Below, piece by piece: positions 18,891 to 34,598 of a stretch of DNA of 64,000 nt (positions are counted from its first letter, which is position 1; every line of letters starts with the position of its first letter). The notes below the pieces were generated by a model that worked only from the letters and a program-made list of their open reading frames with translations, made no database searches and was not told the DNA's origin. The stretch is from NCBI RefSeq assembly GCF_021730305.1, contig NZ_CP032674.1:3271001-3335000 (forward strand), given 5' to 3'. Source of the DNA: Xanthobacter sp. YC-JY1 (GTDB lineage: Bacteria > Pseudomonadota > Alphaproteobacteria > Rhizobiales > Xanthobacteraceae). A program made the translations under genes and the position numbers.

Positions 18891-18909
18891 GGCTTCCTGT
18901 TTCATGGCC

Positions 18910-19728
18910 TCAATCCGGCAGCGCCAGATCCGACCAGATCGCCTCGGTCAGTTCCGTGAAGGCCGGGTCGCTGCGCATGGCGCGCATGTGCCGTGGCCGC
19001 GGCAGGTGGACCTTGTATTCGGCGAGGATGCGGGCCGGGCGGGCGCTGAACACCACCACGCGATCGGCCAGCGCCACCGCCTCCTCGATATCGTGGGTGA
19101 CGAAGATGATGGAGCGGCGCTCCGCCTCCCACACCCTCAGCAGTTCGAGGCCCATGGCGATCTTGGTCTGGTAGTCGAGCGCGCCGAAGGGCTCGTCCAT
19201 CAGCATCAAAGAGGGGCGATAGGCGAGCAGGCGCCCCAGCGACACGCGCTGGCGCATGCCGCCCGAAAGCTGCTTCGGCCACGCATTCTCGAAGCCTTCG
19301 AGCCGCAGCAGCTTGATGAGCCGCGCCACCTGCGCCGCCTGTTCGCCGGTGGGCGTGCCACCCAGCTCGGCGCCGACGCGGATGTTCTGCGCCACCGTCC
19401 GCCAGGGCAGCAGCGCGTCCTTCTGGAACATGAAGCCGACCTTGGGCGGCGGCCCGGTGACGGCCTTGCCGTCCACCTCCACCTGCCCGCCGGAGGGCGT
19501 CAGCAGCCCGCTTATGGCGCGCAGGATGGTGGATTTGCCCGAGCCCGACGGCCCCACCACGGCGACGAATTCACCCTCCGCCACATCGAGCGAGATGCCC
19601 GAGACCACCTCCAGCGGCGGCATGTCCGGCCGGGGGAAGGAGATGGAGAGATCTTTCAGCGCGGCACGGGGCCTCGGCGTTTCGGCGGTCAGCGCCAAAT
19701 TGGTCAGCGCCAGGTCGGTCAGCGCCAT
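18910..19728 (-). CDS. ABC importer ATPase (TauB/SsuB-like)
   Basis: This 272-residue nucleotide-binding subunit has Walker A GPSGSGKST, a Q-loop (FMFQKDALLPW), the signature LSGGMRQRVSLGR, Walker B LMLMDEPFGALD and the H-loop histidine in VTHDIEEA. These match the nitrate/sulfonate/taurine importer type. The N-terminus has a short repeat (LTDLALTNLALT) from a near-triplicate of about 15 bases. The start overlaps the permease stop by ten bases, implying translational coupling. It powers the importer formed with the next two upstream genes. Confidence 0.93.
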   Translation of the reverse strand: MALTDLALTNLALTAETPRPRAALKDLSISFPRPDMPPLEVVSGISLDVAEGEFVAVVGPSGSGKSTILRAISGLLTPSGGQVEVDGKAVTGPPPKVGFMFQKDALLPWRTVAQNIRVGAELGGTPTGEQAAQVARLIKLLRLEGFENAWPKQLSGGMRQRVSLGRLLAYRPSLMLMDEPFGALDYQTKIAMGLELLRVWEAERRSIIFVTHDIEEAVALADRVVVFSARPARILAEYKVHLPRPRHMRAMRSDPAFTELTEAIWSDLALPD

Positions 19729-20528
19729 GTGATCATCCTCCGCTCGACGAAGCCGACAAGCTGATTGGCCAGCATGGCCAGCACCATCAGCACGATGAGG
19801 CCGGTGAACACGCCGGTGGTGTCGAGCTGGCCGCCGCGGCTTTCCACGTACCAGCCGAGACCGCGATTGGCGCCGATCAGCTCGCCCACCACCGCGCCGA
19901 TGAGGGCGAGGCCGATGCCGATGCGGAACGAGGCGAGGATCCACGGCGTCACCGCCGGCAGCAGCACCCGGCGCACCAGATAGAGGCGCCCGGCGCGCAT
20001 GGACCGCATGAGGTCCAGATGGTCGGGATCGATGGTGCGGATGCCCTCCATGACGTTCATCAGGAAGATGAACACCACCATGGTGAAGGCCATCATGATC
20101 TTCGAGAACAGGCCGATGCCGAACCACAGGATGAACAACGGCGCCAGCGCCACGCGCGGCAGGCCGTAGAGCCCCATGATGACGGGATCGAGGGTGCGGG
20201 CGACCTCCGGCGCGCGGGCCAGCACGATGCCGAGCGGAATGCCGACCAGCGCCGCGAGGACGAGCCCGGCCCCCGCCTCCTGCAGCGTGGTGCTGGTGTG
20301 CAGCCACAATTCGCCGCTGAGGGCGAGCTCCCACAGCCGCGCCGCGATCAGGCTCGGCCGGCTGCTCCAGAACGGGTTGAACAGGGTGTGGGAGGCAAGC
20401 TCCCACAGGCCGAGCAGGACGGCGATGAGGCCGATCTGCCGCAGCCCCGTCGTGCCGATCCCGAAGGAGAAGCTCCGCCGTCCCGGCCGGGCGAAGGCCG
20501 GCCCGCGCGTGGTGATGCTGTCGCTCAT
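19719..20528 (-). CDS. ABC importer permease (TauC/SsuC-like)
   Basis: This 269-residue inner-membrane protein has about six hydrophobic segments and the EAA-type loop of binding-protein-dependent permeases near the middle (MRSMRAGRLYLVRRVLLP). The start at 20528 has GAGG upstream; an ATG twelve bases earlier overlaps the stop of the binding-protein gene by four bases and is equally possible. It lies between the binding-protein and ATPase genes in the leftward operon. Confidence 0.92.
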   Translation of the reverse strand: MSDSITTRGPAFARPGRRSFSFGIGTTGLRQIGLIAVLLGLWELASHTLFNPFWSSRPSLIAARLWELALSGELWLHTSTTLQEAGAGLVLAALVGIPLGIVLARAPEVARTLDPVIMGLYGLPRVALAPLFILWFGIGLFSKIMMAFTMVVFIFLMNVMEGIRTIDPDHLDLMRSMRAGRLYLVRRVLLPAVTPWILASFRIGIGLALIGAVVGELIGANRGLGWYVESRGGQLDTTGVFTGLIVLMVLAMLANQLVGFVERRMITWR

Positions 20529-20536
20529 GCGGCGCC

Positions 20537-21508
20537 TCATTTGGGCAGGTAGGAGAGGGCCACGATGTCGGCGTAGGGCACCGGCTTCAGCTTCGGCTCG
20601 GCGATCGTCATCATGGACATGAGGAAGTTGAAGCTCTCGGGCGACATGACGCCGTCCTTGGAGAGATAGCCGGAGGCCAGGTCATCGGCGAGCTGGGCGA
20701 CCATGGCGTCGTCCTTCATCTCGGGAAACAGGGCCTTGATGGCCGGGTAGAGCACCGTCTTGTCCTGCTGGATCAGGCGCAGCGCCTTCACCACGGCCCG
20801 CGCCACCTTGCGCGCCTCTTCCGGGTGCGCCTTCAGCCACGTATCGGTGGCGATGAGGTCCTGCGCCGGATAAGGCAGCTTGCGGAAATCCTCGATGATC
20901 CGGTAGCCGCCCTTCTCGGCCATGACGATCTGGATATCGGGCGTCGAGAACATGCCGCCGGCGATGGCGCCGGCCTGGAGGGCAGCCTTCTGCGCGCCCG
21001 CGCGGCCCACCGAGAGCAGGACGAAGTCCTTGTCCGGGTCGAACCCCGCCTTGCGGATGGCATAGCGCACGGTGGTGTCTGTGAGGCTGCCGGCCGTGGT
21101 GATGCCGATCTTCTCGCCCTTGAGGTCGGCGATGCTCCTGGCGGTGGAATCCGCCTTGCCGATCAGCGCGTAGCTGTGCTGCTCGGCCAGCGCCACCAGC
21201 ACCTTTCCGCCGAGGCCGCGATCCTGCAGATGGACCGCATGGTCGGCGGCGCAGATGCACAGATCGATGCTGCCCGAGGCGAGCGCCTGCGCCACCGGCC
21301 CGCCGCCCTTGAAGTCCAACCGCTCGTATTTGAGGCCCTCGGCGGCGAAGAAGCCCTTCTGATCGGCGACGAGGATGGGCAGGCCGCCGGCCGAGAGCTG
21401 GGCGACGCCGATCTTGAGCAGGTCCTCGGCCTTGGCGGCCACGGACGACAGGCCGGCCAGCGGCAGAAGCGCCGCGGCGAAAAGAAGAGACTGGAACCTG
21501 CGATGCAT
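20537..21508 (-). CDS. ABC importer substrate-binding protein (NMT1/SsuA-like)
   Basis: This 323-residue periplasmic binding protein has a signal peptide (about residues 1-27, ending AAKAED). The mature part has the SsuA/THI5 pattern: GVAQLSAGGLPILVADQKG, a small-substrate pocket region with ASGSIDLCICAADHAV and a conserved ITTAGSLTDT loop. AGAGGG lies upstream of the ATG. The family binds taurine, sulfonates, thiamine pyrimidines, phthalate-like acids and others, so the ligand is not predictable. The UbiD decarboxylase upstream suggests an unsaturated or aromatic carboxylic acid, which is inference. Confidence 0.9.
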   Translation of the reverse strand: MHRRFQSLLFAAALLPLAGLSSVAAKAEDLLKIGVAQLSAGGLPILVADQKGFFAAEGLKYERLDFKGGGPVAQALASGSIDLCICAADHAVHLQDRGLGGKVLVALAEQHSYALIGKADSTARSIADLKGEKIGITTAGSLTDTTVRYAIRKAGFDPDKDFVLLSVGRAGAQKAALQAGAIAGGMFSTPDIQIVMAEKGGYRIIEDFRKLPYPAQDLIATDTWLKAHPEEARKVARAVVKALRLIQQDKTVLYPAIKALFPEMKDDAMVAQLADDLASGYLSKDGVMSPESFNFLMSMMTIAEPKLKPVPYADIVALSYLPK

Positions 21509-21661
21509 GTGTTCACCCTCTTGAAGAGTGGAAGAATGCTTCACCAACCTCAGGCGCTCTCGCCGATTCTGTTTTCCGGGCGATGTGTTCTTCTTTGTTA
21601 CGTCTTCAGGACTGGCCGACTTGAATTGCCTATGGATTGGCCATGGCGGTCCGCGGGCGCC

Positions 21662-23266
21662 TCAGGCACCCGGCGGCTTGGCGGCGAACGGCGAGCCGCG
21701 CAGGCACATGGCGCCCTTCGGGTCCTGCCACAGGCGTTCGGTGGCGTGCAGATGGCCGAGCGCGCGGGCGATCACGGCGAAGTTGTAGTCGCTGAACGCT
21801 TCCGCGATATCCGTGTAATAGCGCGGCGCCTCGCCGATCATCTGCGCGATCTTCTCGGCCAGCGCCGCGACATCTTCCTCGCTCGCCGGGGCGCCGGGCT
21901 GGTCGGCCTTGCCGGACACGTAGTCTCCGATCTTCGCCGTGTCGGCATAGGCATAGGCGATGCGCTCGTAGCGCTCCTTCGGGATGCCCTCGGAGATGGT
22001 GGCATCGATGCCCACCTTCGCGGTGGTGGGCACCACGCCGGGCGGCGTCGGCGGCAGGCTCGGGTCGAGCGGTTTCCCGCGCGCGCCGGTGACGATCATG
22101 ATGTCCTTGTCACCCTGCACGCGCGTGGCGATGGCCCATTCCACGTCCATGGGATTGAAGACGTCGATGTCGTCGTCCACCACCACCACATGCTTCAGGT
22201 CCATCACCGAAAGGGCGGCGAGCAGGGCGTTCTTGCCCTCCCCCGGCTGCTTCTTGATGGAGATGACGGCGTGCCAGAAGGCGCAGCCGCCGAGGGTGAC
22301 GTTGATGTCCTTCACCTGCACGCCGGCGGTCTTCAGCGCCTGCCGGATGGCCGCATAGCGGGTGGGGGCGGCGAGCCAGGTGTTCTCCCACGGCATGTGG
22401 AGCGCGTAATAGACGGCATCCTTGCGCATGGAGACGGACTTGATGCGCACGATGGGGTTCCAGTGCAGCCCGCCCATGAGGCGGGTGAACTCGCCGAAGC
22501 GGCCTTCCGGATAGATCCAGCCATGGGGCAGGATCTCCGCCTCCAGGACGATCTCGGCGTCGGCGATGTAGGGCACGTCGATGGTGCGGCAGGGCGCAAG
22601 GTCCACCGGACCGCCGCGCAGGCCGCCAGAGATGGCCATCTCATCCACGCCGAGGGGCGCGCGGAAGCCCGAGCCCATGATCTCGTAGGGGTGGGTGCCG
22701 ATGGAGATGGAGATGGGACACGGCCGGCCCGCCTCGTACGCCCGCTGCGCGAACAGGCGCATGTTGTTGGGCGTGACGATATCGATGCCGGTGAGGTTCT
22801 TTTCCTTGACGATGAAGCGGTAGATGCCCGCGTTGAGCCCGAACTCCGGATCGCGCGCGATCACCACGCCGGCGGTGATCATCGGGCCGCCGTCATAGAT
22901 GGAGCTCATGGGGATGGGCAGCTTGTAGAGGTCGACCGCGTCGCCCTCCATCACCACTTCCTGCGTGGGAGAGGTGTTGACGATGTTGGGGTTGACCGGC
23001 CGGTCGATGGCCGCCCTCAGCTTCATCTCGATTTCGGGATAGGCGGTGCAGCCGAGCGACATGATGGCCCGCTTCTGCGAGCGGATGATGCCGGAGACGA
23101 CGGGCACGTCGTAGCCGATGACGTTGTGGAAGAACAAAGCCTTGTCGGACTGGTCCACGAGCGTCGCGATGTGGCGGATGTCGATCGGCTGATGGAGGTC
23201 GATCAACTCGCCCTGATCGCGAAGCCGGCCCAGAAACTCGCGAAACGTCTCGGTATCGTGCCGCAT
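21662..23266 (-). CDS. UbiD-family prenylated-FMN-dependent (de)carboxylase
   Basis: This 534-residue enzyme is of the UbiD family, which reversibly decarboxylates aromatic, heteroaromatic or alpha,beta-unsaturated acids with prenylated FMN and a metal ion. Family blocks are clear: GIIRSQKRAIMSLGC near the N-terminus, the metal/cofactor region with IYRFIVKEKNLTGI, and the catalytic stretch PEGRFGEFTRLMGG with the conserved Glu residues. It is about 40-80 residues longer than UbiD proper; the extra C-terminal part contains TDIAEAFSDYNFAVIARALG. It is the first gene of an operon with an ABC importer and ubiX, and a MarR gene lies upstream on the same strand. No ubiquinone genes are near, so a catabolic role is likely. 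The substrate is unknown. Confidence 0.92.
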   Translation of the reverse strand: MRHDTETFREFLGRLRDQGELIDLHQPIDIRHIATLVDQSDKALFFHNVIGYDVPVVSGIIRSQKRAIMSLGCTAYPEIEMKLRAAIDRPVNPNIVNTSPTQEVVMEGDAVDLYKLPIPMSSIYDGGPMITAGVVIARDPEFGLNAGIYRFIVKEKNLTGIDIVTPNNMRLFAQRAYEAGRPCPISISIGTHPYEIMGSGFRAPLGVDEMAISGGLRGGPVDLAPCRTIDVPYIADAEIVLEAEILPHGWIYPEGRFGEFTRLMGGLHWNPIVRIKSVSMRKDAVYYALHMPWENTWLAAPTRYAAIRQALKTAGVQVKDINVTLGGCAFWHAVISIKKQPGEGKNALLAALSVMDLKHVVVVDDDIDVFNPMDVEWAIATRVQGDKDIMIVTGARGKPLDPSLPPTPPGVVPTTAKVGIDATISEGIPKERYERIAYAYADTAKIGDYVSGKADQPGAPASEEDVAALAEKIAQMIGEAPRYYTDIAEAFSDYNFAVIARALGHLHATERLWQDPKGAMCLRGSPFAAKPPGA

Positions 23267-23785: not shown

Positions 23786-24292
23786 TCACCCGCGCCGCTT
23801 GATATCCGCCTCAAGCCGCTCCGTGAGATCGATCAGCATGTCCCGCAGGGCCATCTGGGCGGCCAGATCGAGCCCCTCTAGGGCGACGCTGTTCACCTCG
23901 GCGGCGTTGCGGACGGCATCGCGGGCGAGGCGGACGCCTTCCTCGGTAAGATGGATGGTGGCGAGCCGCCCGTCTTCCGCGCTCTGGCGGCGGGTGATGA
24001 GGCCGTCGCGCTCCATGCGCTTCAGGGTATTGGCCATGGTGGCCTGCTCGATGCGCACCACCTCGCACAGATCGCGCTGGCTCATGCCGTCCTGGGCGAG
24101 CAGTTCCACGGCGATGGGATATTGGCCGGGGAGGATTCCATCCGGCCCGTTGCGCACCTTCAGGGACTGGGCGAGCAGCCGCGCCAGCAGGCTGATGAGA
24201 TAGCCGAGCGTCATCCGGTGCTGCGGGGCGACCTCGAAGCCCTCCGGCGCCTGCGTCTCCTGCGCCTGATGCTTGCCTTTGGCCGCCATCAT
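23786..24292 (-). CDS. MarR-family transcriptional regulator
   Basis: This 168-residue winged-helix regulator has the MarR pattern: a leading helix (YLISLLARLLAQSLKVRN), the recognition part MSQRDLCEVVRIEQATMANT and the wing GLITRRQSAEDGRLATIHLT with the conserved DxR. The start is at a double ATG preceded by GGAGGGG; open frame continues upstream but is low-complexity. MarR regulators often sense phenolic or acyl-CoA ligands. It lies between the two divergent catabolic operons and could repress the UbiD operon, its own gene, or both. Confidence 0.9.
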   Translation of the reverse strand: MMAAKGKHQAQETQAPEGFEVAPQHRMTLGYLISLLARLLAQSLKVRNGPDGILPGQYPIAVELLAQDGMSQRDLCEVVRIEQATMANTLKRMERDGLITRRQSAEDGRLATIHLTEEGVRLARDAVRNAAEVNSVALEGLDLAAQMALRDMLIDLTERLEADIKRRG

Positions 24293-24635
24293 CACCCCTC
24301 CGCTCGATTGCAGACCCGTCCGGGCGGGCGTCGAGCACCGCGCACCATCTTCCGCAGCCCTGCGGGCCGCGTCCCCCCTTTCGGTTTTAGAGGGAGAGGC
24401 GCCGGATTTCCAAGGCCCCGCTCGCCGGCCCCCTCCGGAGCCGCAAGCCGGCACCGCGACTGGACCATTCTTGGGCAGCGCCTTGTGAGCCTCCCACCAA
24501 AACCGCCCGCTTTTGCGACAGCCATGCATTACACAATTGATTTACATCGATAAATTTTTTCATAGCGTGCTATCTATTTAGCCTTCTCCCTACCGGTTAC
24601 CTTCTGTAGGCTTCTCACCAGTCAGCCGAGAGGTG
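24293..24635. promoter_or_regulatory. Divergent promoter region between marR and gntR
   Basis: This 343-base gap is GC-rich next to marR and strongly AT-rich at about 24528-24600, just before gntR. The AT-rich part carries -35/-10-like sequences for rightward transcription and the palindrome at 24562-24573. I see no gene in it. Confidence 0.55.
24562..24573. promoter_or_regulatory. Palindrome ATAGC-gt-GCTAT, candidate GntR operator
   Basis: Perfect 5-bp arms around two bases lie in the AT-rich island about 65 bases before the gntR start. FCD-type GntR proteins commonly bind short AT-containing palindromes near their own promoters. Which regulator binds here is not shown. Confidence 0.45.
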
Positions 24636-25406
24636 ATGAGCGTGACCGAGGAGCGCGACAGCGACCGGGGGTCGGAAGCGGGGCATGTCCTCGAAATTCC
24701 GAGCGCGACCCTGAAGGGCCGGCAGGCCTACGACCTGCTCCGGCGCGAGATCGTCTCCTGCCGCATTCTGCCGGGCACGCGCTTCACCGAGGCGGAGCTG
24801 ATGGAGCGGCTGGAGATCGGCAAGGCCAGCTGCCGCATCGCCCTCCAGCGGCTCATTCAGGATGGCTTCGTCGCCTCCATGCCGCGCCACGGCTACCGGG
24901 TCACACCCATCACCGTGAAGGATGTGGAAGAGGTCTTCGCGCTCCGCCTCGTGCTGGAGCCGCTGGCCGCGCGCGGCGCCGCCGGACGGGTCAACCGCGC
25001 CCATCTGGAGCGCCTCGAACAGGCCTGCCGGGTGAAGCTGCCCACCGACGTGGGCAACCAGATCGACTTCTTCCTCGAAGCCAACCGCAGCTTCCACATG
25101 GCCATCGCGGAGGCCGCCGGAAACCAGCGCCTGTGCCGCACGCTTTCCGGTCTCCTCGACGAGATGACGCGCCTCGTGGCGCTCGGCTTCGGCGTGCAGG
25201 GCGTGCGCCCCAACATCGCCAACGATCACGTGCTGCTCATCGAATATCTGTCGGCCGGCGATGCGGCGGCCGCCGCCGAGGTGGCACGGCGGCATGTGGA
25301 GACGTTCCGCGAGATGACCATGGAAAAGGTCATCGCCTCGCTCCGGGATTCCGCCGCGGTGGTGCCGGTTTCCCCGCTCTCCAGCCTGAGCGGGAGGGAG
25401 CGGTGA
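24636..25406 (+). CDS. GntR-family regulator with FCD domain
   Basis: This 256-residue regulator has an N-terminal winged helix (about residues 20-90: YDLLRREIVSCRILPG, ELMERLEIGKASCRIALQRL, then HGYRVTPI). A C-terminal all-helical FCD domain follows, with the Asp/His positions that often hold a metal and an organic acid (FFLEANRSFHMAIAEA). The start is set at the ATG with GAGAGG upstream, inside a GTG-ATG pair. Its stop overlaps the start of the ABC ATPase gene (GTGA). It therefore leads the rightward operon and probably senses its substrate or a breakdown product. Confidence 0.92.
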   Translation: MSVTEERDSDRGSEAGHVLEIPSATLKGRQAYDLLRREIVSCRILPGTRFTEAELMERLEIGKASCRIALQRLIQDGFVASMPRHGYRVTPITVKDVEEVFALRLVLEPLAARGAAGRVNRAHLERLEQACRVKLPTDVGNQIDFFLEANRSFHMAIAEAAGNQRLCRTLSGLLDEMTRLVALGFGVQGVRPNIANDHVLLIEYLSAGDAAAAAEVARRHVETFREMTMEKVIASLRDSAAVVPVSPLSSLSGRER

Positions 25407-26149
25407 GCGTCGTTCAGTTGGAAAGCGTCGGCAAGAGCTTCATGCGCCGCGACGGCGAGCAGCTCGAAGTGCTGCGCAACATCGATCTCGACGTGCCGGA
25501 GCGCTCCATCGTCGCCCTCGTCGGCGCCTCGGGCTGCGGCAAGAGCACTTTGCTCAACATCGTCGCCGGCCTCATCCCGCCGGATCAGGGCACGGTCTAT
25601 CTCAACGGCCAGAAATCCAGCGCCTTCAGGGACTGGCGCAGCATGACCTACATGTTCCAGGAGGACCGGCTGTTCCCCTGGCGGACAACCGCGCAGAACA
25701 TCGCCCTCGGCCTCGAGGCCGCCGGCATGCCGCGCGCGGAACGGCGCGATCGGGTGATGCAGGTGCTGGAGCTGGTGGGGCTCGAAAAGTTCGCCGACTC
25801 CTTCCCCCACGAACTCTCCGGCGGCATGCGCTCGCGCGCCGCGCTGGGGCGCAGCCTCGTAACCGAGCCCTCGATCCTGCTCATGGACGAGCCCTTCTCC
25901 AAGCTCGATCCCTCGATCCGCACGCAGATGCACGACGAGGTGCTGCGCATCGCCGCCCTCCGGCAGATGTCGGTGCTGTTCGTCACCCACGACGTGGAGG
26001 AGGCGGTGGTCCTCGCCAACAAGATCGTGGTGCTGATGCCGCGGCCCGGACGGGTGAAGGAAACCCGCGAGATCGACCTGCCCTACCCCCGCAATCCGCT
26101 CTCTCCTGAGGTCGCCGAGGAGGTGCGCCTGCTGCGCCTCAGCCTGTGA
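25403..26149 (+). CDS. ABC importer ATPase, second system (TauB/SsuB-like)
   Basis: This 248-residue ATPase has Walker A GASGCGKST, Q-loop MFQEDRLFPW, signature ELSGGMRSRAALGR, Walker B LLMDEPFSKLD and VTHDVEEA. It starts at a GTG that overlaps the gntR stop codon, with GGGAGGGAG just before. The signature has Ser-Arg where the importer at 18.9 kb has Gln-Arg, and the two ATPases differ widely. They therefore belong to separate importers, not a recent duplication. Confidence 0.92.
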   Translation: MSVVQLESVGKSFMRRDGEQLEVLRNIDLDVPERSIVALVGASGCGKSTLLNIVAGLIPPDQGTVYLNGQKSSAFRDWRSMTYMFQEDRLFPWRTTAQNIALGLEAAGMPRAERRDRVMQVLELVGLEKFADSFPHELSGGMRSRAALGRSLVTEPSILLMDEPFSKLDPSIRTQMHDEVLRIAALRQMSVLFVTHDVEEAVVLANKIVVLMPRPGRVKETREIDLPYPRNPLSPEVAEEVRLLRLSL

Positions 26150-26223
26150 GCTTAAAGCCCGCAGCCCAAAGCCCCCTTGCCCCATTCCGCCGCGTCCGTC
26201 CTCCTTCTCAGAAGCCGAGCCAG

Positions 26224-27015
26224 ATGAAGCGCTCTCCCCTCCAGATGACCCAGGACCGCCGGCTGCGCCTCATCGGCCTCAGGCTGCTGCTCCTCATCGT
26301 CGTGATCGGCATCTGGGGGATCGGCTCTCTCGGGGCGCCGGCCTTCATCCTGCCGAGCCCGCGCCGGGTGTTCGGGGTGTGGACGCAGCTCGTCATCACG
26401 CCTGGCTTCTGGGCGGATTTCGGCATCACCTTCTACCGCATCGCCATGGGGTTCATCTTCGCCACCGTGGTGGGCGTGGTGCTGGGCCTCCTGCTCGGGG
26501 CGAGCCGCACGCTCGGCGACTTCTTCCAGCCCTTGCTGGTGGTCATCAACACGGTGTCCTCGTCCATCTGGGCGATCTTCGCGCTCATCTGGTTCGGCCT
26601 GTCCAACTGGTCGACCATCTTCGTGGTGTTCATGACCGCGATGCCGCTCATCCTCACCAATGTCTGGCAGGGCACGAGCACGGTGAACCGCGATTTCATC
26701 GAGCTGGCGCAGACGTTCCGCATGTCGCGGCTTCAGGTTCTTCTGAAGATCTACCTGCCCACCATCCTGCCCCAGTTCTTCGCCGGCGCGCGCCTCGCCT
26801 TCGGCTTCGGAGCCCGCGTCTCCATCGTGGCGGAAGCGCTCGGCGCGTCGAGCGGCATCGGCTATCGGCTGCGGCAGGCGGCAGACCTCGTGCAGACGGA
26901 CCAGGTGTTCGCCTGGACCCTCACCCTCGTCATCCTGATGATCTTCATCGAGGCGGTGCTGCTGAAGCCCCTCGAAACCCGTCTCTTCGCCTGGCGCAAG
27001 CCGCGCCCGGCCTGA
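26224..27015 (+). CDS. ABC importer permease, second system
   Basis: This 263-residue inner-membrane protein has about six membrane segments and the EAA-type loop (ELAQTFRMSRLQVLLKIYLP). The start is uncertain. The ATG at 26224 gives a normal N-terminus, but a GTG at 26146 overlaps the ATPase stop and would add 26 residues of Pro/Arg-rich sequence. It sits between the ATPase and the binding-protein genes. Confidence 0.88.
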   Translation: MKRSPLQMTQDRRLRLIGLRLLLLIVVIGIWGIGSLGAPAFILPSPRRVFGVWTQLVITPGFWADFGITFYRIAMGFIFATVVGVVLGLLLGASRTLGDFFQPLLVVINTVSSSIWAIFALIWFGLSNWSTIFVVFMTAMPLILTNVWQGTSTVNRDFIELAQTFRMSRLQVLLKIYLPTILPQFFAGARLAFGFGARVSIVAEALGASSGIGYRLRQAADLVQTDQVFAWTLTLVILMIFIEAVLLKPLETRLFAWRKPRPA

Positions 27016-27064
27016 CATCCATAAAGACAAGAAACATTACAACCTTCCATTACGGGGATTCGAT

Positions 27065-28042
27065 ATGAAGCGTCTTGCTCTACTGGCCGCGGCAGTCGCA
27101 ATCGGCCTCTCATCTCTTCCCGCTGAGGCCGCGAAAGTGCGGATCGGATACTGGAGCTCCGGCGTCAGCCTCGGCTTCGGCTCCTTTCTGGAAGCCGGCA
27201 AGTTCATGGAAAAGCAGGGGCTCGAAGCCGAGTTCGTGAAGTTTCCGGATGTGAACGCGCCCACGAAGGCCATGGCGGCCAGCGCCATCGACTTCGCCAT
27301 CGGCGCGAGCGCCGGCAGCGCCTTCTCGGTGGCCGCCGACGGCCTGCCCATGAGCATCGTGCTCGCCACCCAGGTGGCCGACCTCGACTTCGTGGTGATG
27401 GCGGATTCCCCCATCACCAAGATGGAGGAGCTGAAGGGCAAGAAGATCGGCATGTCCCCGTCCGGCAGCGCCACCGCGGCCATCAGCTCGGCCATCCTCA
27501 TCAAGAATTACGGCATGACTGCCGGAGATTTCGAGGCGGTGCCCGGCGCTGATCCGCGCCTCGCGCAGTTCCTGGTGCAGAAGAACATCGACGCCGCCGC
27601 CTTGCGCACCGTCACCATCGCCCTTCTGCCGGACGTGAAGCTGCGCAAACTGTCCACCTTCCGCGCCGAGTGGGCGAAGATCACCGGCAAGCCGGCCGCG
27701 CCCGTGCTCGGCGTCGGCCTCATGCGCAACGAGTGGATGAAGGCGAACCCCGAGGCCGCCGCCAAGGTAATCGCCGGCATGCGCAACGCCTTCGAGGCCG
27801 GCAAAGCGGACAAGGCCGCCGTCGCCAAGGCCCTCATGGCCGCCGGCAACATCCCCGAGGATGACGCCAAGGCCTACGCCGCCCTGTGGGACGGCATCTA
27901 CACCGTCTCCATGGAGCCCGCCGACATCGCGTCGATGAAGGCCGAGTTCGAAGTCTTCAAGAGCGTCGGCGCAGTAAAGGGCGACCTGCCCGACGCGGCC
28001 CTGAATCCTTCTCCCTATGAAGCATCCAAGGCCATCAAGTAG
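27065..28042 (+). CDS. ABC importer substrate-binding protein, second system (NMT1/TauA-like)
   Basis: This 325-residue periplasmic protein has a short signal peptide (about 1-22, ending AEAA). The mature N-terminus is KVRIGYWSSGVSLGFGSF, and the ligand region includes AIDFAIGASAGSAFSV and GMSPSGSATAAISSA, as in taurine/sulfonate-type binding proteins. GGGGA lies upstream of the ATG. The 50-base gap before it is AT-rich. Its small-residue-rich pocket loops differ clearly from the binding protein at 20.5 kb, so a different ligand is likely. Confidence 0.9.
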   Translation: MKRLALLAAAVAIGLSSLPAEAAKVRIGYWSSGVSLGFGSFLEAGKFMEKQGLEAEFVKFPDVNAPTKAMAASAIDFAIGASAGSAFSVAADGLPMSIVLATQVADLDFVVMADSPITKMEELKGKKIGMSPSGSATAAISSAILIKNYGMTAGDFEAVPGADPRLAQFLVQKNIDAAALRTVTIALLPDVKLRKLSTFRAEWAKITGKPAAPVLGVGLMRNEWMKANPEAAAKVIAGMRNAFEAGKADKAAVAKALMAAGNIPEDDAKAYAALWDGIYTVSMEPADIASMKAEFEVFKSVGAVKGDLPDAALNPSPYEASKAIK

Positions 28043-28105
28043 TCGCCCTGGCGCAAAAGCCGCCACGACGTCCCCAAGAAACGTTCCAAGCAGAGAGAAA
28101 GAGAA

Positions 28106-29122
28106 ATGACAAAAACGATGAAGGCCCTGCTGCTGAAGCAACATGGCGACGTGAGCGATCTCGTGGTCGTCAACGACTATCCCGTCCCCAGCCCCAAGCC
28201 GGGCGAGGTGGTGATCCGCGTCGGCGCGTCGTCCTTCAACTATCACGACGTGTTCACGGTGAAGGGCATGCCCGGCATCAAGGTGCCGCTGCCCGTCATC
28301 ATCGGCCTCGACATGGCCGGCGAGATCGTGGAGCTGGGCGAGGGCGTCACCGGCTGGTCGGTGGGCGACCGGGTGCTGGTGAACCCGCTCAACCCCAAGG
28401 TGGGGCTGATGGGCGAGATGATGGACGGCGGCATGGCGGAATACTGCGCCGTCACCGCCGGCCAGCTCATCAAGATGCCCGACGGCGTGAGCTTCACCGA
28501 CGCCGCCTCGCTGCCGGTGGCCTACGGCACCGCGCACCGCATGCTCGTCACCCACAACACGGTGAAGGCGGGCGACAAGGTGCTCATCCTCGGCGCCTCC
28601 GGCGGCGTCGGCACGGGCTGCGTCATGCTCGCCAAGCAGATGGGCTGCGAGGTGATCGCCTGCGCCGGCTCCGACGACAAGATGGCCCGCCTGAAGGAGC
28701 TGGGCGCCGACCACGTCGTCAACTACCGCACCACGGACTTCTCCAAGTGGGCGGTCGAGAAGTACGGCAAGCCCCAGCGCCGCACCTATGAGGGCGGCGT
28801 GGACGTGGTGGTGAACTTCACCGGCGGCGACACCTGGGTGCCCTCGCTGCGCTGCGTGAAGCGCGGCGGCACCATCCTGGTCTGCGGCGCCACGGCCGGC
28901 CACGATCCCAAGGAAGATCTGCGCTACATCTGGAGCTTCGAGCTGAAGGTCATCGGCTCCAACAGCTTCTACCACGAGAACCTCTCCGCCCTCATGGACA
29001 TGATCCAGAAGGGCGAGCTGAAGCCGGTGGTGGACAAGGTCCTGCCGCTTGAAGAGGCCGCCGAGGGCCTGCGCATGATCCGCGACCGCGAGGTCATGGG
29101 CAAGATCGTCGTCACCCCCTGA
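28106..29122 (+). CDS. Medium-chain dehydrogenase/reductase, quinone-reductase or enoyl-reductase type
   Basis: This 338-residue NAD(P)H-dependent oxidoreductase has a GroES-like N-terminal half (NYHDVFTVKGMPGIKVPLP; GLDMAGEIVELGEG) and a Rossmann half with ILGASGGVGTGCVMLAKQMG. The usual structural-zinc cysteine cluster is absent, and Tyr stands where zinc enzymes keep Cys in the NYHD motif. This favours a zinc-free quinone, crotonyl or acryloyl reductase over an alcohol dehydrogenase. It lies 63 bases after the binding-protein gene and starts the enzyme part of the operon. Confidence 0.88.
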   Translation: MTKTMKALLLKQHGDVSDLVVVNDYPVPSPKPGEVVIRVGASSFNYHDVFTVKGMPGIKVPLPVIIGLDMAGEIVELGEGVTGWSVGDRVLVNPLNPKVGLMGEMMDGGMAEYCAVTAGQLIKMPDGVSFTDAASLPVAYGTAHRMLVTHNTVKAGDKVLILGASGGVGTGCVMLAKQMGCEVIACAGSDDKMARLKELGADHVVNYRTTDFSKWAVEKYGKPQRRTYEGGVDVVVNFTGGDTWVPSLRCVKRGGTILVCGATAGHDPKEDLRYIWSFELKVIGSNSFYHENLSALMDMIQKGELKPVVDKVLPLEEAAEGLRMIRDREVMGKIVVTP

Positions 29123-29131
29123 GAGGCTGCC

Positions 29132-29551
29132 ATGTCTGACGCTCCCCTGACCAAGGAACAGGTCGAAGCCCTCCTGCTGAAGGGCCCCTTCCACCAGTGG
29201 CTCGGCCTCACCGTCGAGGACGTGGGCGAGGGCACCATCCGCCTGCGCGCCAAGTGGCGCCCGGAATGGGTGGTGAATGCCGACCGGGGCTACGCCCATG
29301 GCGGCATCCTCGCCACTTTGGTGGACCTCACCGCCGACTGGGCGCTGGTGTCCAAGACCGGCCGCGGCGTGCCCACCGTGGACCTGCGGGTGGACTACCA
29401 CCGCGCGGCCATGCAGCACGACCTCATCTGCGTGGGCAAGGTCATCAAGTTCGGCGGCCAGCTCTGCGTCTCCGAGGCGCAGATCCTGGACGAGGACGGC
29501 AAGCTGCTCGCCTCCGGGCGCGGGGTCTACATGATCCCGCCCAAGGCCTGA
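29132..29551 (+). CDS. PaaI-like hotdog-fold thioesterase
   Basis: This 139-residue hotdog protein probably hydrolyses an acyl-CoA thioester. The PaaI pattern is visible: NADRGYAHGGILATLVD (the HGG that caps the active-site helix) with a following Asp, and VDLRVDYHRAA. It is cytoplasmic with no signal. GAGAGG precedes the ATG, nine bases after the reductase gene. With the ligase downstream it could recycle CoA or release the final acid. Confidence 0.9.
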   Translation: MSDAPLTKEQVEALLLKGPFHQWLGLTVEDVGEGTIRLRAKWRPEWVVNADRGYAHGGILATLVDLTADWALVSKTGRGVPTVDLRVDYHRAAMQHDLICVGKVIKFGGQLCVSEAQILDEDGKLLASGRGVYMIPPKA

Positions 29552-29562
29552 GGAGGAAACCC

Positions 29563-30345
29563 GTGGCCGCGCTCGACCATGTGGTGATCAACACCCTCAA
29601 GTCCATGGACGCGGCCGCGGACCTCTTTGCGGCGCTGGGCTTCACGCTCACGCCGCGGGGGCACCATTCGCTCGGGTCCATCAACCACCTGATGATGACG
29701 CCCGGCGCCTATCTGGAGCTGGTGGGGGTGCCGGACACCGGCCGCCAGCGCCAGGAGGTGCTGGACAGCCCGTTCGGCCTCAACGGCCTGGTGCTGCGCA
29801 CCTTCGACGCCGACGCCACCCGCGACCGCCTCGCGGCCTCGGGCTTCGCCCCGGCGGGGCCGGTGGCCTTCTCGCGGCCGGTGGAGGTGGACGGCGTGGA
29901 GCACGACGCCCGCTTCCGCACCGTGCGCTTCCCGCCGGAGACCTTCCCCGCCGGCCGCGTCTATTTCTGCGAGCACCTGACGCCGGAACTGGTCTGGCGG
30001 CCGGAATGGATGGCCCATCCCAACGGCTTCCTTGCCATCGACAGCGTCACCGTCTCCTCCGCCGAGCCGGAAGAAGAGGCGCGCCGCCTCGCCACCGCGT
30101 TCGAGAGCACGGCGACGCCCGCGGAAAGCGGCTGGCGCATGCCGCTGGACGATGCCGACGTGCTGGTGGTGCCGGGCGAGACCGCCGGCTTTCGCACCGC
30201 CACGCTCCGCTTCTCCAGCCTCGATGACATCGCCGCGCGTGCCCAGAGGCGGAGCGATGCCGGATGGCAGGCGCTCGGCACTGACGCGGGCGTGCTCAGC
30301 CTGCCCGCCTTTGATTTGAACCTGACCTGCAGGAGCAGCCGATGA
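29563..30345 (+). CDS. VOC/glyoxalase-like protein (Glyoxalase_3 type)
   Basis: This 260-residue protein starts at a GTG preceded by GGAGGAAA. The N-terminal half has the vicinal-oxygen-chelate pattern with His6 (ALDHVVIN) and a Glu in YLELVGV. A second His/Glu set (FCEHLTPELVW) follows, and the C-terminal half is a weaker repeat. VOC proteins include glyoxalase, glutathione-transferring, epimerase and ring-cleaving enzymes; this subgroup has no settled reaction. Its stop overlaps the ligase start (ATGA). Confidence 0.85.
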   Translation: MAALDHVVINTLKSMDAAADLFAALGFTLTPRGHHSLGSINHLMMTPGAYLELVGVPDTGRQRQEVLDSPFGLNGLVLRTFDADATRDRLAASGFAPAGPVAFSRPVEVDGVEHDARFRTVRFPPETFPAGRVYFCEHLTPELVWRPEWMAHPNGFLAIDSVTVSSAEPEEEARRLATAFESTATPAESGWRMPLDDADVLVVPGETAGFRTATLRFSSLDDIAARAQRRSDAGWQALGTDAGVLSLPAFDLNLTCRSSR

Positions 30346-31868
30346 GCTTGCCCGCGAACCTCGGGGATTTCGTCTGCCGCACCAATGCGCCGGACCACCC
30401 GCTGCTCATCGGCCTTGATTTCGACGGCGGCACCACCGTGCTCACCCGCGCCGCCTTCGACGCCCTCGCCGATGCCGTGGCCCGCGGCCTCCTCCGCCAG
30501 GGGCTCGTGCGCGGCGACCGCATCGCCATCCTCGCGGCCAACCGCCCGGACTATGTGGCGGTGGTGATGGGCGCCATGCGCGCCGGCATCGTGCCGGTGC
30601 CGGTGAACTTCAAGTTCCCCGCCGCCACCATCGCCGACGTGATCGCCGATTGCGGCGCCCGCCTCGTGATCCATGACGGAGAGCGCCGCGCGCTCCTGCC
30701 CGCCACGCCGCCCGAGGGCATCACCTTCGTGGACTTCGACGGCACCGGGCCGGGCACGCTCGCCGGCCTCCTCGATCCCGGCCCGTTCGAGCCGGTGGTT
30801 CCGGCGCCCGACGAGCCGGCGCTCAGCCTCTACACCTCCGGCTCCACCGGGCGGCCGAAGGGCGTGCTGCTCTCCCACGCCGCCCACCGGTGGGTGGCGG
30901 ACACCCGCCGCACCGAGACCGACCTCTCCCGCGAGCGCATGCTGATTGCCGCGCCGCTCTATCACATGAACGCGCTGGCGCTGGCGCTGCTCGCCTGCGC
31001 CTCCGGCAGCACGGCGGTGATCCTGCCCCAGTTCCGCGCCGTGCCCTATATCGAGGCCATCGCCAGCCACGGCTGCACCTTCCTCACCGCCGTGCCGCCC
31101 ATGATCGCCATGATGCTCCGGGAGAAGGCGGCGCTGGCGCAGGCCGACCTCTCCGGCGTGCGCATGCTGCGCATGGGCTCGGCGCCGGTGACGGATTCGC
31201 TGGCCCAGCAGATCCGCCAGCTACTGCCCAACGCCGCCATCATCAATGCCTATGGCACGACGGAAGGCGGGCCCATCGTGTTCTCCGGACATCCGGACGG
31301 GCGGCCCGTGCCCATGGGCTCGGTGGGCTATCCCCATCCGCAAGTCGCCGTGCGCCTCGTGGGGCCGGAGGCGCCGGAGACCGGCGAGCTGGAGATGAAG
31401 AGCCCGGCGGTGATGCTCGGCTATCACAACCGCCCCGACGTGCGCTCGCCCCTCACGGCGGACGGCTTCTACCGCACCGGCGACGTGTTCCGCCGCGACG
31501 CGGATGGCTTCTATTATTTCCTCGGCCGCACCGACGACATGTTCGTCTGCGGCGGCGAGAACATCTTCCCCGGCGAGGTGGAGGCGGTGCTGGACCGCCA
31601 TCCGCAGGTGCTGCAATCCTGCGTCGTGCCGGTGCCGGATGATATCAAGGGCGAGAAGCCCGTGGCCTTCGTGGTGCGCCGCGCCGGCGCCGACATCAGC
31701 GAGGAGGCCCTGAAGCAGTACATGCTATCCAACGCCCCCGCCTATCAGCATCCGCGCCGGGTCTGGTTCCTCGACCAGATGCCGCTCGCCTCCACCAACA
31801 AGATCGACCGCAGCGCGCTGAAGCGGCGCGCGGTGGCCGAACTGAGCGCCGTGGGGAGCCCGGCATGA
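30342..31868 (+). CDS. Class I adenylate-forming ligase (acyl-CoA synthetase type)
   Basis: This 508-residue enzyme activates a carboxylic acid as an acyl-adenylate, normally then passing it to CoA. Core motifs are [37 protein letters not shown] and the C-terminal catalytic Lys in [11 protein letters not shown]. It overlaps both neighbours by four bases (ATGA), with AGGAG upstream. The substrate pocket cannot be assigned. It is the only ligase in the island, so it is the likely entry step for the imported acid. Confidence 0.92.
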
Positions 31869-32947
31869 ACGTCATCTCCCCGCCCCGCGCCGTCCCGGAC
31901 CAGGCGTGGGTGGCCGAGGCCATCGCGCGCATCGAGGCGGACATCAACCGCTCGGCGGACACCCACCTCATCCGCATCCCGCTGCCGCGCGTGCCGGGCA
32001 TCACGCTCTATCTGAAGGACGAATCGAGCCACCCCACCGGCAGCCTCAAGCATCGGTTGGCGCGTTCGCTCTTCCTCTATGCGCTGTGCAACGGCTGGAT
32101 CGGGCCGGACACGACGATCATTGAATCCTCGTCCGGCTCCACCGCCATTTCGGAAGCCTATTTCGCCCGGCTGCTGGGCCTGCGTTTCATCGCGGTGATG
32201 CCCCGGCGGACCTCGGCGGAGAAGGTGGCGGCCATCGCCTTCGAGGGCGGCGAGCCGCACCTCATCGACGGCTGGAACACCTCGCAGGAGGCGCGCCGGC
32301 TCGCCGAGGAGCTGGACGGCCATTACATGGACCAGTTCACGTTCGCCGAGCGCGCCACCGACTGGCGCGGCAACAACAACATCGCCGAGAGCATCTTCTC
32401 GCAGATGGCGTTCGAGCCGTACCCGATCCCCGACTGGGTGGTGTGCAGCGCCGGCACCGGCGGCACGGCGGCGACCATCGGGCGCTTCATCCGCTATCGC
32501 AAGTTCCCCACGCGGCTGTGCGTGGCCGACCCGGAAGCCTCCGTCTTCCACCGCCACTATGCCGACCGCTCGGTGATGCAGGTGGATGCCTGCAAGAGCG
32601 TCATCGAGGGCATCGGCCGCACGGTGGTGGAGCCCTCCTTCATCCCCTCGGTGGTGGACCGCATGGCGGTGATCTCCGATGCGGCGAGCATCGCCGCCGC
32701 CCGGCGGATCAGCGCCGTGATCGGCCGCGCCTGCGGCGGCTCCACCGGCACCAACATCTCCGCCTGCGTGGACCTCATCGAGGCGATGGCGGCGCAGGGG
32801 AAAGGCGGGTCCATCGTGACCCTCTTGTGCGATTCCGGCGTGCGCTACCGCTCCACCCTGTATGACGATGCCTGGCTCGCCGAGCACGGCATCGATTTGT
32901 CGCCCCACATCGCGCGGCTCGATGCCGTATTCGGCCCTCAGCCGTGA
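31865..32947 (+). CDS. PLP-dependent cysteine synthase-family protein, Cds1-like
   Basis: This 360-residue fold-type II PLP enzyme has the Schiff-base Lys62 in [11 protein letters not shown], the substrate-binding loop [18 protein letters not shown], a phosphate-binding [12 protein letters not shown] and a C-terminal [12 protein letters not shown]. The long [14 protein letters not shown] loop and extra N-terminus resemble Cds1-type L-cysteine desulfhydrases more than CysK or CysM. It may therefore split cysteine or a cysteine S-conjugate into pyruvate, ammonia and a thiol or sulfide. The activity is inferred. It overlaps the ligase gene by four bases. Confidence 0.85.
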
Positions 32948-32972
32948 GTTCCTCCTTCTTCGGGACCGCACC

Positions 32973-34598
32973 ATGACTGCGTCGTTCGATTGGTCCGCCG
33001 GCTATCCCTCGCGGCGCCTGCCCGTGTTCGGCAACAATGTGGTCTCCACCTCCCATCCCCGGGCGGCGCAGGCGGGGCTGTCCATGATCGCGCGCGGGGG
33101 CAATGCGGTGGACGCCGCCATCGCCGCCGCTGCCGTGATGGCCATCGTGGAGCCGTGCAGCAACGGCCTCGGCTCGGACGCCTTCTGCATCCTGTGGGAC
33201 GGCAAGGGCCTGCACGGCCTCAACGCCTCCGGCTTCGCCCCCGCCGCCTGGACGCCCGACTACTTCCGCGCCAGGTACGGCGCCGACGCCAAGACCCTGC
33301 CCCAGCGCGGCTGGGATGCGGTGACGGTGCCGGGCGCGGTGGCGAGCTGGGTCGCCCTCTCCGAGCGTTTCGGCAAGCTGCCCTTCGCGGACCTCATGGA
33401 GCCGGCCATCGCCATCGCCGAGCGCGGCTTCCTCGTCTCCACCAACGTGCAGCACAAATGGGCGGCGGCCGCGACCCTGCCCCAGCTCACCGGCCAGCCA
33501 GGCTTCAAGGAGGTGTTCCTGCCCAAGGGCCGGGCGCCCTTCGTGGGCGAGCATGTGCGCATGCCGGGCGCGGCCCGCGCGCTGCGGCTGATCGGCGAGA
33601 CGAAGGGCGAGGCCTTCTATCGCGGCGAGATCGCCGACGCGCTGGAGGCCAACGCCAAGGCCAATGGCGGCGCCCTCACCGCCGCCGACATGGCCGCCTA
33701 TGCCCCGGAATGGGTGACGCCCGTCGCGCAGGACTATCGCGGCTACACGGTGCACGAGATTCCGCCCAACGGGCAGGGCATCACCGCGCTGATGGCGCTG
33801 GGCATCCTCTCCCATTTCGACCTTCAGGGCCTTACAGCCGATAGCGTGGAGGCGCAGCACCTCCAGATCGAGGCCATCAAGCTCGCCTTCGCCGATGTCT
33901 ATCGCTACGTGGCCGATCCCAGGGCCATGGAGATCAGCCCGGCGGACATGCTGGACAAAGACTATCTCGCCGGCCGCGCCCGCCTCATCGACCCGCGCCG
34001 CGCGCAGCGCTTCGCGCCGGGCAATCCGGTGCGCGGGGGCACCATCTATCTCACGGCGGCGGACGCCTCGGGCATGATGGTGAGCTTCATCCAGAGCAAC
34101 TATCAGGGCTTCGGCTCCGGCGTCGTGCTGCCGGAATGGGGCGTCTCGCTGCAGAACCGCGGCTTCGGCTTCAGCCTGAACCCGGAGCGCGCCAACGTGG
34201 TGGCGCCGCGCAAGCGGCCCTTCCACACCATCATTCCCGGCTTCCTCACCAAGGACGGCCAGCCGGTGATGAGCTTCGGCGTCATGGGCGGCAACATGCA
34301 GCCGCAGGGCCATGTGCAGACGCTGGTGCGCATGCTCGATTTCGCCCAGAACCCGCAGGCCGCCTGCGACGCGCCGCGCTGGCGCTTCGACGAGGGGCTG
34401 TCCATCAACCTCGAACCGGGCAACACGCCGGAGCTGCTGGACGGCCTCGCGGCTTTGGGCCACGAGGTGGCCGTGCTCAACGACACCTATCAGGATTTCG
34501 GCGCCGGCCAGTTCATCTGGCGCATGGGCGATCCGGCCGTCGAGGGCTACGCCGCCGCGAGCGATCCGCGCCGCGACGGGCAGGCGGCGGTGAGCTGA
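32973..34598 (+). CDS. Gamma-glutamyltransferase-family enzyme, no signal peptide
   Basis: This 541-residue Ntn-hydrolase precursor has the GGT blocks ARGGNAVDAAIAAAAVM, EPCSNGLGSDAF, PPNGQGITALMAL and the processing site GGTIYLTAADASG with Thr357 as the predicted nucleophile. It also has the later NYQGFGSG and PFHTIIPGF stretches. Typical GGTs read Thr-Thr-His at the cleavage point and are periplasmic. Here the motif is Gly-Gly-Thr-Ile-Tyr and there is no signal peptide, as in cytoplasmic YwrD-like members or cephalosporin-acylase relatives. It follows the PLP gene by 25 bases and closes the operon. It may remove a gamma-glutamyl group from a conjugate or hydrolyse another amide. Confidence 0.88.
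   Translation: MTASFDWSAGYPSRRLPVFGNNVVSTSHPRAAQAGLSMIARGGNAVDAAIAAAAVMAIVEPCSNGLGSDAFCILWDGKGLHGLNASGFAPAAWTPDYFRARYGADAKTLPQRGWDAVTVPGAVASWVALSERFGKLPFADLMEPAIAIAERGFLVSTNVQHKWAAAATLPQLTGQPGFKEVFLPKGRAPFVGEHVRMPGAARALRLIGETKGEAFYRGEIADALEANAKANGGALTAADMAAYAPEWVTPVAQDYRGYTVHEIPPNGQGITALMALGILSHFDLQGLTADSVEAQHLQIEAIKLAFADVYRYVADPRAMEISPADMLDKDYLAGRARLIDPRRAQRFAPGNPVRGGTIYLTAADASGMMVSFIQSNYQGFGSGVVLPEWGVSLQNRGFGFSLNPERANVVAPRKRPFHTIIPGFLTKDGQPVMSFGVMGGNMQPQGHVQTLVRMLDFAQNPQAACDAPRWRFDEGLSINLEPGNTPELLDGLAALGHEVAVLNDTYQDFGAGQFIWRMGDPAVEGYAAASDPRRDGQAAVS

Follow-up and report, generated by a model that had tools for sequence, protein, structure and literature searches.

Xanthobacter sp. YC-JY1 carries a run of ten co-directional genes in which an importer and acid-activating enzymes are joined to a pyridoxal phosphate (PLP) enzyme resembling the cysteine desulfhydrase Cds1 and to a member of the gamma-glutamyltransferase (GGT) superfamily, and the question raised by this locus is what kind of compound such a gene set would handle. 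We analyzed a stretch of 64,000 nucleotides (nt), here called the window (contig NZ_CP032674.1, positions 3,271,001 to 3,335,000; the host genome is a single contig of 5.39 Mb), in which the ten genes form one operon at 24633-34598 on the plus strand. The answer that we favor, at a rough probability of 0.37, is that this operon and the divergent block upstream of it, which encodes a UbiD-family decarboxylase, make up a single pathway for the breakdown of an imported carboxylic acid, which would contain an amide bond and a beta-substituted amino acid of the cysteine type. The operon consists of the following genes, including those of an ATP-binding cassette (ABC) importer, a medium-chain dehydrogenase/reductase (MDR), a vicinal oxygen chelate (VOC) protein, a coenzyme A (CoA) ligase, and a predicted N-terminal nucleophile (Ntn) hydrolase.

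24633..25406, plus strand: GntR/FCD transcriptional regulator, first gene of the operon (PF07729, 86.9 bits; PF00392, 40.4 bits)
25403..26149, plus strand: ABC importer ATPase (PF00005, 113.5 bits; start taken as GTG 25403, overlapping the GntR gene by 4 nt)
26146..27015, plus strand: ABC importer permease (PF00528, 80.1 bits)
27065..28042, plus strand: ABC importer substrate-binding protein, NMT1 type (PF09084, 56.7 bits)
28106..29122, plus strand: MDR reductase, PIG3/quinone-oxidoreductase-like (PF00107, PF08240; TIGR02824, 207 bits, below the cut-off of 296.8)
29132..29551, plus strand: hotdog (PaaI-like, 4HBT) thioesterase (PF03061, 47 bits; TIGR00369, 81.6 bits, cut-off 36.6)
29563..30345, plus strand: VOC protein, Glyoxalase_3 family (PF13468, 101.6 bits; start GTG 29563)
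30342..31868, plus strand: class I acyl-CoA ligase (AMP ligase; PF00501, 254.7 bits)
31865..32947, plus strand: Cds1-like PLP enzyme, cluster-specific clade (PF00291, 161.2 bits; NF052478, 526.6 bits, cut-off 600)
32973..34598, plus strand: GGT-superfamily Ntn-hydrolase, YwrD/HpxW-like, probable amidase from residue comparison (PF01019, 493.3 bits; start ATG 32973)

All gene types named in the preliminary description of this DNA were present, and its gene list, order, and rightward strand agreed with the Pfam and NCBIfam matches, as did its acid-activating ligase and its Cds1-like PLP enzyme, for which cysteine desulfhydrase was the closest family. From the GntR to the GGT gene the intergenic distances were -4, -4, 49, 63, 9, 11, -4, -4, and 25 nt, including four 4-nt overlaps, and the genes are indeed mostly overlapping or closely spaced, as had been stated. 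The simple open reading frames of the VOC and GGT genes were over-long, and their starts were set from sequence context and relatives, that of the GGT gene being judged from relatives. The top solved relatives of the ligase were a fatty-acyl-CoA synthetase and a feruloyl-CoA synthetase. Zinc ligands were not evident by eye in the MDR reductase, and the thioesterase, which matched the general hotdog model, scored 26.8 bits with the PaaI hydroxyphenylacetyl-CoA thioesterase equivalog TIGR02286, below its cut-off of 118.9. For the VOC protein, the predicted structure had a mean predicted local distance difference test (pLDDT) score of 71.5, with residues 31-41, 46-48, and 56-70 below 50; its nearest solved structure was an uncharacterized S. 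aureus protein, followed by 4-hydroxyphenylpyruvate dioxygenase (HPPD) types at a root-mean-square deviation of about 6-9 Å. The model is weak and its structural neighbors are distant, and it, therefore, suggests no more than a two-domain VOC protein. PF13468 is named without a stated function in the excerpts of PMC12424672 consulted. A simple TNGT-ACNA operator pattern for the GntR regulator occurred in 2 of 12 upstream regions scanned and was absent upstream in the window.

Conservation across genera showed that the operon is a real unit. When species genomes were scanned with the PLP protein, 265 relatives were found, the best 80 of which were fetched as loci, and six of these 80 had the whole ten-gene order (X. 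aminoxidans, whose PLP protein is 97% identical to that of the window, a Rhizobiales metagenome-assembled genome, two Hansschlegelia, and two Methylopila). Since the same order is found in Xanthobacter, Hansschlegelia, and Methylopila, the clustering is not due to chance, and chance adjacency was rejected. A seventh locus, from Xanthobacter sp. NM-59 (L016), had only VOC-PLP-GGT, and the ligase, reductase, and thioesterase were absent from the stretch examined. These seven were also the loci among the best 80 with a GGT gene no more than 5 kb away from the PLP gene; none was found within that distance in the other 73, with 67 of the 80 loci having 2.5 kb on both sides. In one genus (f35 g81) with 10 genomes, to which the Hansschlegelia and Methylopila loci above appear to belong, seven had the whole order and three lacked the PLP gene only, and in the source genus the distribution was patchy, with the ligase in 4 of 14 genomes (E 1e-110) and the PLP gene in 5 of 14 (E 1e-60). 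Over all searches, the cluster-type PLP gene was found in 16 distinct genomes, the window included, and the GGT gene came next in every one; the spacing measured by alignment was 23-59 nt in 14 of the 15 other genomes, 197 nt in L123, where the MDR, ligase, and GGT genes have frame changes, and 25 nt in the window. We conclude that the ten-gene set is one conserved operon and that its PLP step is accessory and dispensable, being absent from some genomes. The ligase-Cds1-GGT trio singled out in the preliminary description does co-occur in conserved order, but it was rejected as a natural unit: NM-59 lacks the ligase within the stretch examined, three genomes have no PLP match at E 1e-60, and the VOC-PLP-GGT and MDR-PaaI-ligase groups each occur without the other.

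The match of the PLP enzyme to NF052478, the NCBIfam model of the cysteine desulfhydrase Cds1, spanned positions 1-346 of 354, and the runner-up family, cysteine synthase A, scored 163.1 bits, which leaves Cds1 ahead by over 360 bits. A midpoint-rooted tree was built from 95 sequences after removal of identical ones. In it, the 16 cluster members including that of the window formed one clade with a support of 0.987 and zero outsiders, and two diagnostic columns set the 16 apart from the other 79 Cds1-family sequences (90% inside, 80% outside). K62 and the SSSGST loop (S88-T93), which, as in fold-type II enzymes, we take to be the PLP lysine and an active-site loop, were invariant in eight cluster sequences. 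Given a clade within the Cds1 family with this support and two diagnostic columns, the family chemistry is probably retained. According to the consulted part of PMC8389258, purified Rv3684 (Cds1) converts cysteine to H2S and pyruvate, and we infer from sequence a similar beta-elimination for the window enzyme.

The GGT-superfamily enzyme was aligned to E. coli GGT (2e0w) and compared at six residues that we take to bind the glutamyl group; these residues and their numbering were checked by counting along the alignment. Thr391, Gly483, and Gly484 are retained in the window enzyme, and all six glutamyl residues are replaced (Arg114 by Ser, Asn411 by Tyr, Gln430 by Arg, Asp433 by Gly, Ser462 by His, and Ser463 by Thr). 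Among 21 aligned sequences, all six were replaced in 17 of 17 of the window type, counting the window (L019 and L122 represent the same genome, and L167 is without the rest of the gene set described below). The remaining four, with about 30% identity to the window enzyme, make up a second subfamily, in which five of the six were replaced in all and position 462 kept Ser in three and had Thr in the fourth; Thr391 was kept in 21 of 21. Arg114, Asn411, Gln430, and Asp433 are named in the excerpts of PMC8062742, where mutants of Arg114 and Asp433 are tabulated and R114L and R114D of E. coli GGT have no detectable activity. The window enzyme also scored 334 bits with the NCBIfam model TIGR00066, under the cut-off of 357.85, and no signal peptide was evident by eye at its N-terminus. 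Its small subunit was nearest to 2nlz (200.6 bits), the closest solved structure, and then to 5hft (107.9 bits), which we take to be HpxW, oxamate amidohydrolase; FIQS, QNRG, and FHT motifs are common to all three. From these comparisons we conclude that it is an Ntn-hydrolase, and probably an amidase, instead of a glutamyl enzyme. The other PF01019 gene of the genome (L174, G000:C1:32182-33687) is likewise without Arg114 and looks HpxW-like by eye; with both of the two hits lacking this residue, a canonical GGT was, therefore, not found in this genome.

To see which genes accompany the ligase more widely, its matches in 25 of 385 genomes of the class and 75 of 296 genomes of the family, the own genome being counted in both, were followed up. 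Forty matching genomes were hand-picked with one region each, and these regions, the window, L014, 12 of 14 VOC-derived regions, and three plasmid matches gave 57 rows. Excluded were L127 and L128, whose VOC relatives of 45-51% lack the remaining core genes; L016, which has no ligase; L015 and L017-L020, whose genomes are represented by other rows; L095-L099, retrieved on account of GGT or VOC; L131 from Rhodococcus, with a ligase of 37%; and L132 from Bosea, with a UbiD of 32%. Within 10 kb of the ligase, an MDR gene was found in 50 rows, a PaaI-type gene in 48, a VOC-type gene in 43, any UbiD gene in 19 (14 of them at least 74% identical to that of the window), a window-type GGT gene (at least 55%) in 17, a second-type GGT gene in 4 (four genomes of three genera), and a Cds1 gene in 13. 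The widely travelling core consists of the MDR reductase, the PaaI-type thioesterase, the CoA ligase, and the VOC protein, often with UbiD. According to the annotation of the Sodalis praecaptivus plasmid pHS1 (L130), VOC, MDR, PaaI, and ligase genes are accompanied there by those of an ABC importer, a Zn-dependent hydrolase, and, nearby, a cytosine permease.

In the window, the UbiD gene belongs to a minus-strand block at 18318-24292, immediately upstream of the operon, in which the decarboxylase is accompanied by an enzyme for its cofactor, prenylated flavin mononucleotide (prFMN), and by a second importer.

23786..24292, minus strand: MarR regulator (PF12802, PF01047; start estimated by eye)
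21662..23266, minus strand: UbiD-family prFMN decarboxylase (PF01977, 168.8 bits; PF20695, PF20696; TIGR00148, 297.3 bits, cut-off 244.85)
20537..21547, minus strand: second substrate-binding protein, NMT1 type (PF09084, 79 bits; PF13379, 78.6 bits)
19719..20540, minus strand: second ABC permease (PF00528, 91.1 bits)
18910..19728, minus strand: second ABC ATPase (open frame, start ATG 19728 estimated; matches of 63% in L126 and 81% in L137 in the same block)
18318..18905, minus strand: UbiX flavin prenyltransferase, predicted prFMN supply for UbiD (TIGR00421, 232.2 bits, cut-off 108.9)

UbiD enzymes carry out the prFMN-dependent decarboxylation of acrylic and (hetero)aromatic acids, as described in the consulted parts of PMC8379154 and PMC8988006. 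Orthologs of the window UbiD, 74-91% identical, were found near MDR-PaaI-ligase genes in other genomes, and in L138 the ortholog is clustered with GGT, PLP, ligase, VOC, and PaaI genes. The UbiD block of L137 (genome G834) holds its own MDR and PaaI copies between MarR and UbiD; in the window, this position (23267-23785) is a gap of 519 nt. On the far side of UbiX from the operon lies a gene for a metallo-beta-lactamase-fold protein (17411-18292, plus strand) with weak SoxH-related and glyoxalase II matches.

Some related loci carry other proteins of similar type. Two of them lie close to the core of L165: an M20 amidohydrolase, with 368.6 bits to TIGR01891 (cut-off 153.75), and a cystathionine beta-lyase, with 455.1 bits to TIGR01324 (cut-off 365.9). 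In L147 and L151, which are from one genus, the second-type GGT gene is followed by genes for a sodium symporter, for a class V enzyme resembling SufS, for a Blh-like persulfide dioxygenase, and for a TauE-type exporter; in L147, where the family scans of this gene set were made, the class V PLP enzyme scored 150.5 bits (below the cut-off of 475.1) and the protein similar to the persulfide dioxygenase Blh 566.9 bits (cut-off 625). Amidase-type and sulfur-PLP functions thus recur through different proteins, which may point to amide cleavage and sulfur amino acid breakdown. The same second-type GGT runs (L147:12910-19645 and L151:156-6995) also include an Lrp-like protein, recognized by eye, and an alanine racemase. 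Downstream of VOC-PLP-GGT in L016 lie genes for RidA, for a flavin adenine dinucleotide (FAD) protein, and for a protein like amino acid oxidases, together with a peptide-type importer recognized by eye. Beside VOC, MDR, and PaaI genes, L168 (17561-18685) and L170 (1360-2487) encode a DUF2817 protein, assigned from a scan of L168 with PF10994, with a peptide-type importer recognized by eye.

The route that we propose, tentative in the order of its steps and in its exact compound, comprises the following steps. The two ABC importers, whose genes are observed, would take up the compounds. The amide bond would be cut by the GGT-superfamily enzyme, which is probably an Ntn-amidase of the YwrD/HpxW type that is cytosolic and processes itself, and the Cds1-like enzyme could convert the released amino acid to pyruvate, ammonia, and sulfide or a thiol by beta-elimination. 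The acid half may be processed by the CoA ligase, the MDR reductase, the PaaI-type thioesterase, and the VOC protein, and an aromatic or unsaturated acid could be decarboxylated by the prFMN-dependent UbiD enzyme.

Several observations weigh against this proposal. The assignment of the amidase rests on residue loss and resemblance. Four genomes (G094, G135, G273, and G834) keep the core and have no PLP match at E 1e-60, and in the first three of these the GGT gene directly follows the ligase gene with a gap of 21-91 nt. Plasmid stretches of Methylobacterium and Caballeronia have the core without a PLP or GGT gene. Conversely, three plasmid regions, inspected among 740 records with a match, have GGT relatives of 57-69% beside tripartite or ABC importers, with no PLP gene and no core, and this GGT type, therefore, has uses beyond the pairing with PLP. 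In genus f35 g81, none of the 10 genomes searched had UbiD of the window type (at least 74%), and three had only a 38% relative; UbiD is, therefore, a frequent partner and not an obligatory one. Two lineages (L165 and L147/L151), in 3 of the 57 rows, account for the sulfur-PLP replacements; the M20 and cystathionine beta-lyase genes were found in one row and the class V enzyme in two, and adjacency is not proof. Finally, genera are represented more than once among the 57 rows, several rows come from truncated contigs, and in some the ligase relatives are only remote.

A narrower version, in which all of these enzymes (prFMN decarboxylase, CoA ligase, reductase, and thioesterase, Glyoxalase_3 VOC protein, non-glutamyl GGT-fold amidase, and cysteine-lyase clade) degrade one natural organosulfur amide, seems doubtful to us. 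If true, it would give a catabolic role to both the YwrD-type GGT branch and the Glyoxalase_3 family.

The best surviving alternative to a single route for an amide-linked acid is that two independent functions share a promoter, namely, an acid-degrading core (MDR, PaaI, ligase, VOC, and UbiD) and a sulfur-salvage pair, amidase and cysteine desulfhydrase, with no role beyond supplying or removing cysteine sulfur. The Methylobacterium and Caballeronia cores without the PLP-GGT pair fit such an arrangement, and so does L016, in which VOC-PLP-GGT occurs without ligase, MDR, or PaaI; the modules recombine. On the other hand, the VOC gene is common to both halves, the ligase and PLP genes overlap by 4 nt in the window, and in other genomes this core has a member of the second GGT subfamily nearby. 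We regard a pair of separate functions as possible, although somewhat unlikely.

The preliminary description had proposed that GGT and a cysteine C-S lyase process a glutathione conjugate, with the VOC protein making or opening it. The constant position of the GGT gene after the clade-type PLP gene (16 of 16 genomes) and the VOC fold in the operon are in keeping with this, as is the ability of a Cds1 enzyme to beta-eliminate cysteine (PMC8389258, consulted in part). Nevertheless, the glutamyl pocket of the enzyme is lost, and for this reason the glutathione-conjugate (mercapturate) pathway was rejected as the leading explanation. The sub-threshold TIGR00066 score, the lack of an evident signal peptide, the second PF01019 gene without Arg114, and the GGT-bearing genomes without a detectable PLP gene speak against it as well, and no glutathione transferase domain was found in the ten operon proteins, to which this search was confined within the genome. 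We consider trimming of a glutathione conjugate improbable. The broader expectation of a route for a sulfur-containing or electrophilic acid fared better, in that a sulfur-containing acid is still plausible on indirect grounds, and the earlier interpretation as a whole is partly supported.

Equally improbable, in our view, is that the GGT-fold enzyme acts on small amides in the manner of oxamate amidohydrolase, so that the operon would serve the use of an N-oxalyl or ureide-type nitrogen source, with the PLP enzyme degrading a diaminopropionate-type amino acid. The small-subunit motifs are shared with 5hft, and near the core there are a hydantoinase/dihydroorotase-like amidohydrolase gene (L142), an Asp/Glu racemase gene (L137), and the M20 gene of L165. 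However, 5hft scored well below the uncharacterized 2nlz, and the genome's second PF01019 gene is by eye the better HpxW candidate. The L142 gene (1137-2519) lies near UbiD-core genes, and its family was found in three loci, those recognized being all of one genus, which also counts against an oxamate-type role. Least probable of all is a synthase role, in which the PLP enzyme would attach some nucleophile, such as a thiol, to a derivative of serine or cysteine and so trap a reactive enone or quinone from the core: cysteine and cystathionine beta-synthases are among its relatives and the MDR protein is of the quinone-reductase type, but Cds1 far outscored cysteine synthase A, and an importer and a hydrolase would rather suggest breakdown.

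No described pathway with this gene set turned up in the open-licence literature searched, in agreement with the preliminary description, although such a negative speaks only weakly for novelty. Glutathione metabolism should not be read from a GGT annotation next to a cysteine lyase. YwrD-type GGT and Glyoxalase_3 proteins here sit in a conserved operon beside enzymes whose chemistry is known in outline, and growth and assay tests could, therefore, assign them functions.

Among known systems, S-(2-succino)cysteine breakdown of the yxe type was considered because relatives of the VOC protein adjoin a luciferase-like monooxygenase on plasmids of Pantoea and Rhizobium. These relatives, about 42-43% identical, lie in Pantoea vagans (L099) and Rhizobium sp. 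NXC24 (L098) near luciferase-like monooxygenase, alkylhydroperoxidase-domain, and importer genes. The yxe locus, as presented in the consulted part of PMC9706529, likewise brings together an S-conjugate, an importer, and the idea of an amide step, whereas its monooxygenase, acetyltransferase, and lyase are missing among the operon Pfam matches (no direct search was made), and the candidate was rejected since the gene sets do not match.

The UbiD enzyme resembles the HmfF/indole-3-carboxylate decarboxylase group in its best PDB match, 6h6v (HmfF, 275 bits), and in having UbiX in its block; it differs in that furan-pathway genes were not recognized among the neighbors scanned, and furandicarboxylate decarboxylation is a candidate activity. 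With E. coli GGT, the last enzyme of the operon shares PF01019, Thr391, and the Gly483/Gly484 pair, and differs from it in the glutamyl residues, the TIGR00066 score, and the signal peptide. It is closer to 2nlz, the Bacillus halodurans 'cephalosporin acylase' of the YwrD type, and to 5hft, its top two solved relatives, and the likeness to the YwrD branch rests on 2nlz, the YwrD sequence itself being outside the alignment. YwrD of Bacillus has no assigned role in the consulted part of PMC8062742. The PLP enzyme shares with Cds1/CdsH L-cysteine desulfhydrases the near full-length NF052478 match, K62, and the SSSGST loop, and departs from them in falling under the 600-bit cut-off, in forming its own clade, and in its GGT neighbor, which was not seen within 5 kb in the other 73 of the best relatives fetched. 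The enzymes are all of known families; what is new is their combination and its conservation.

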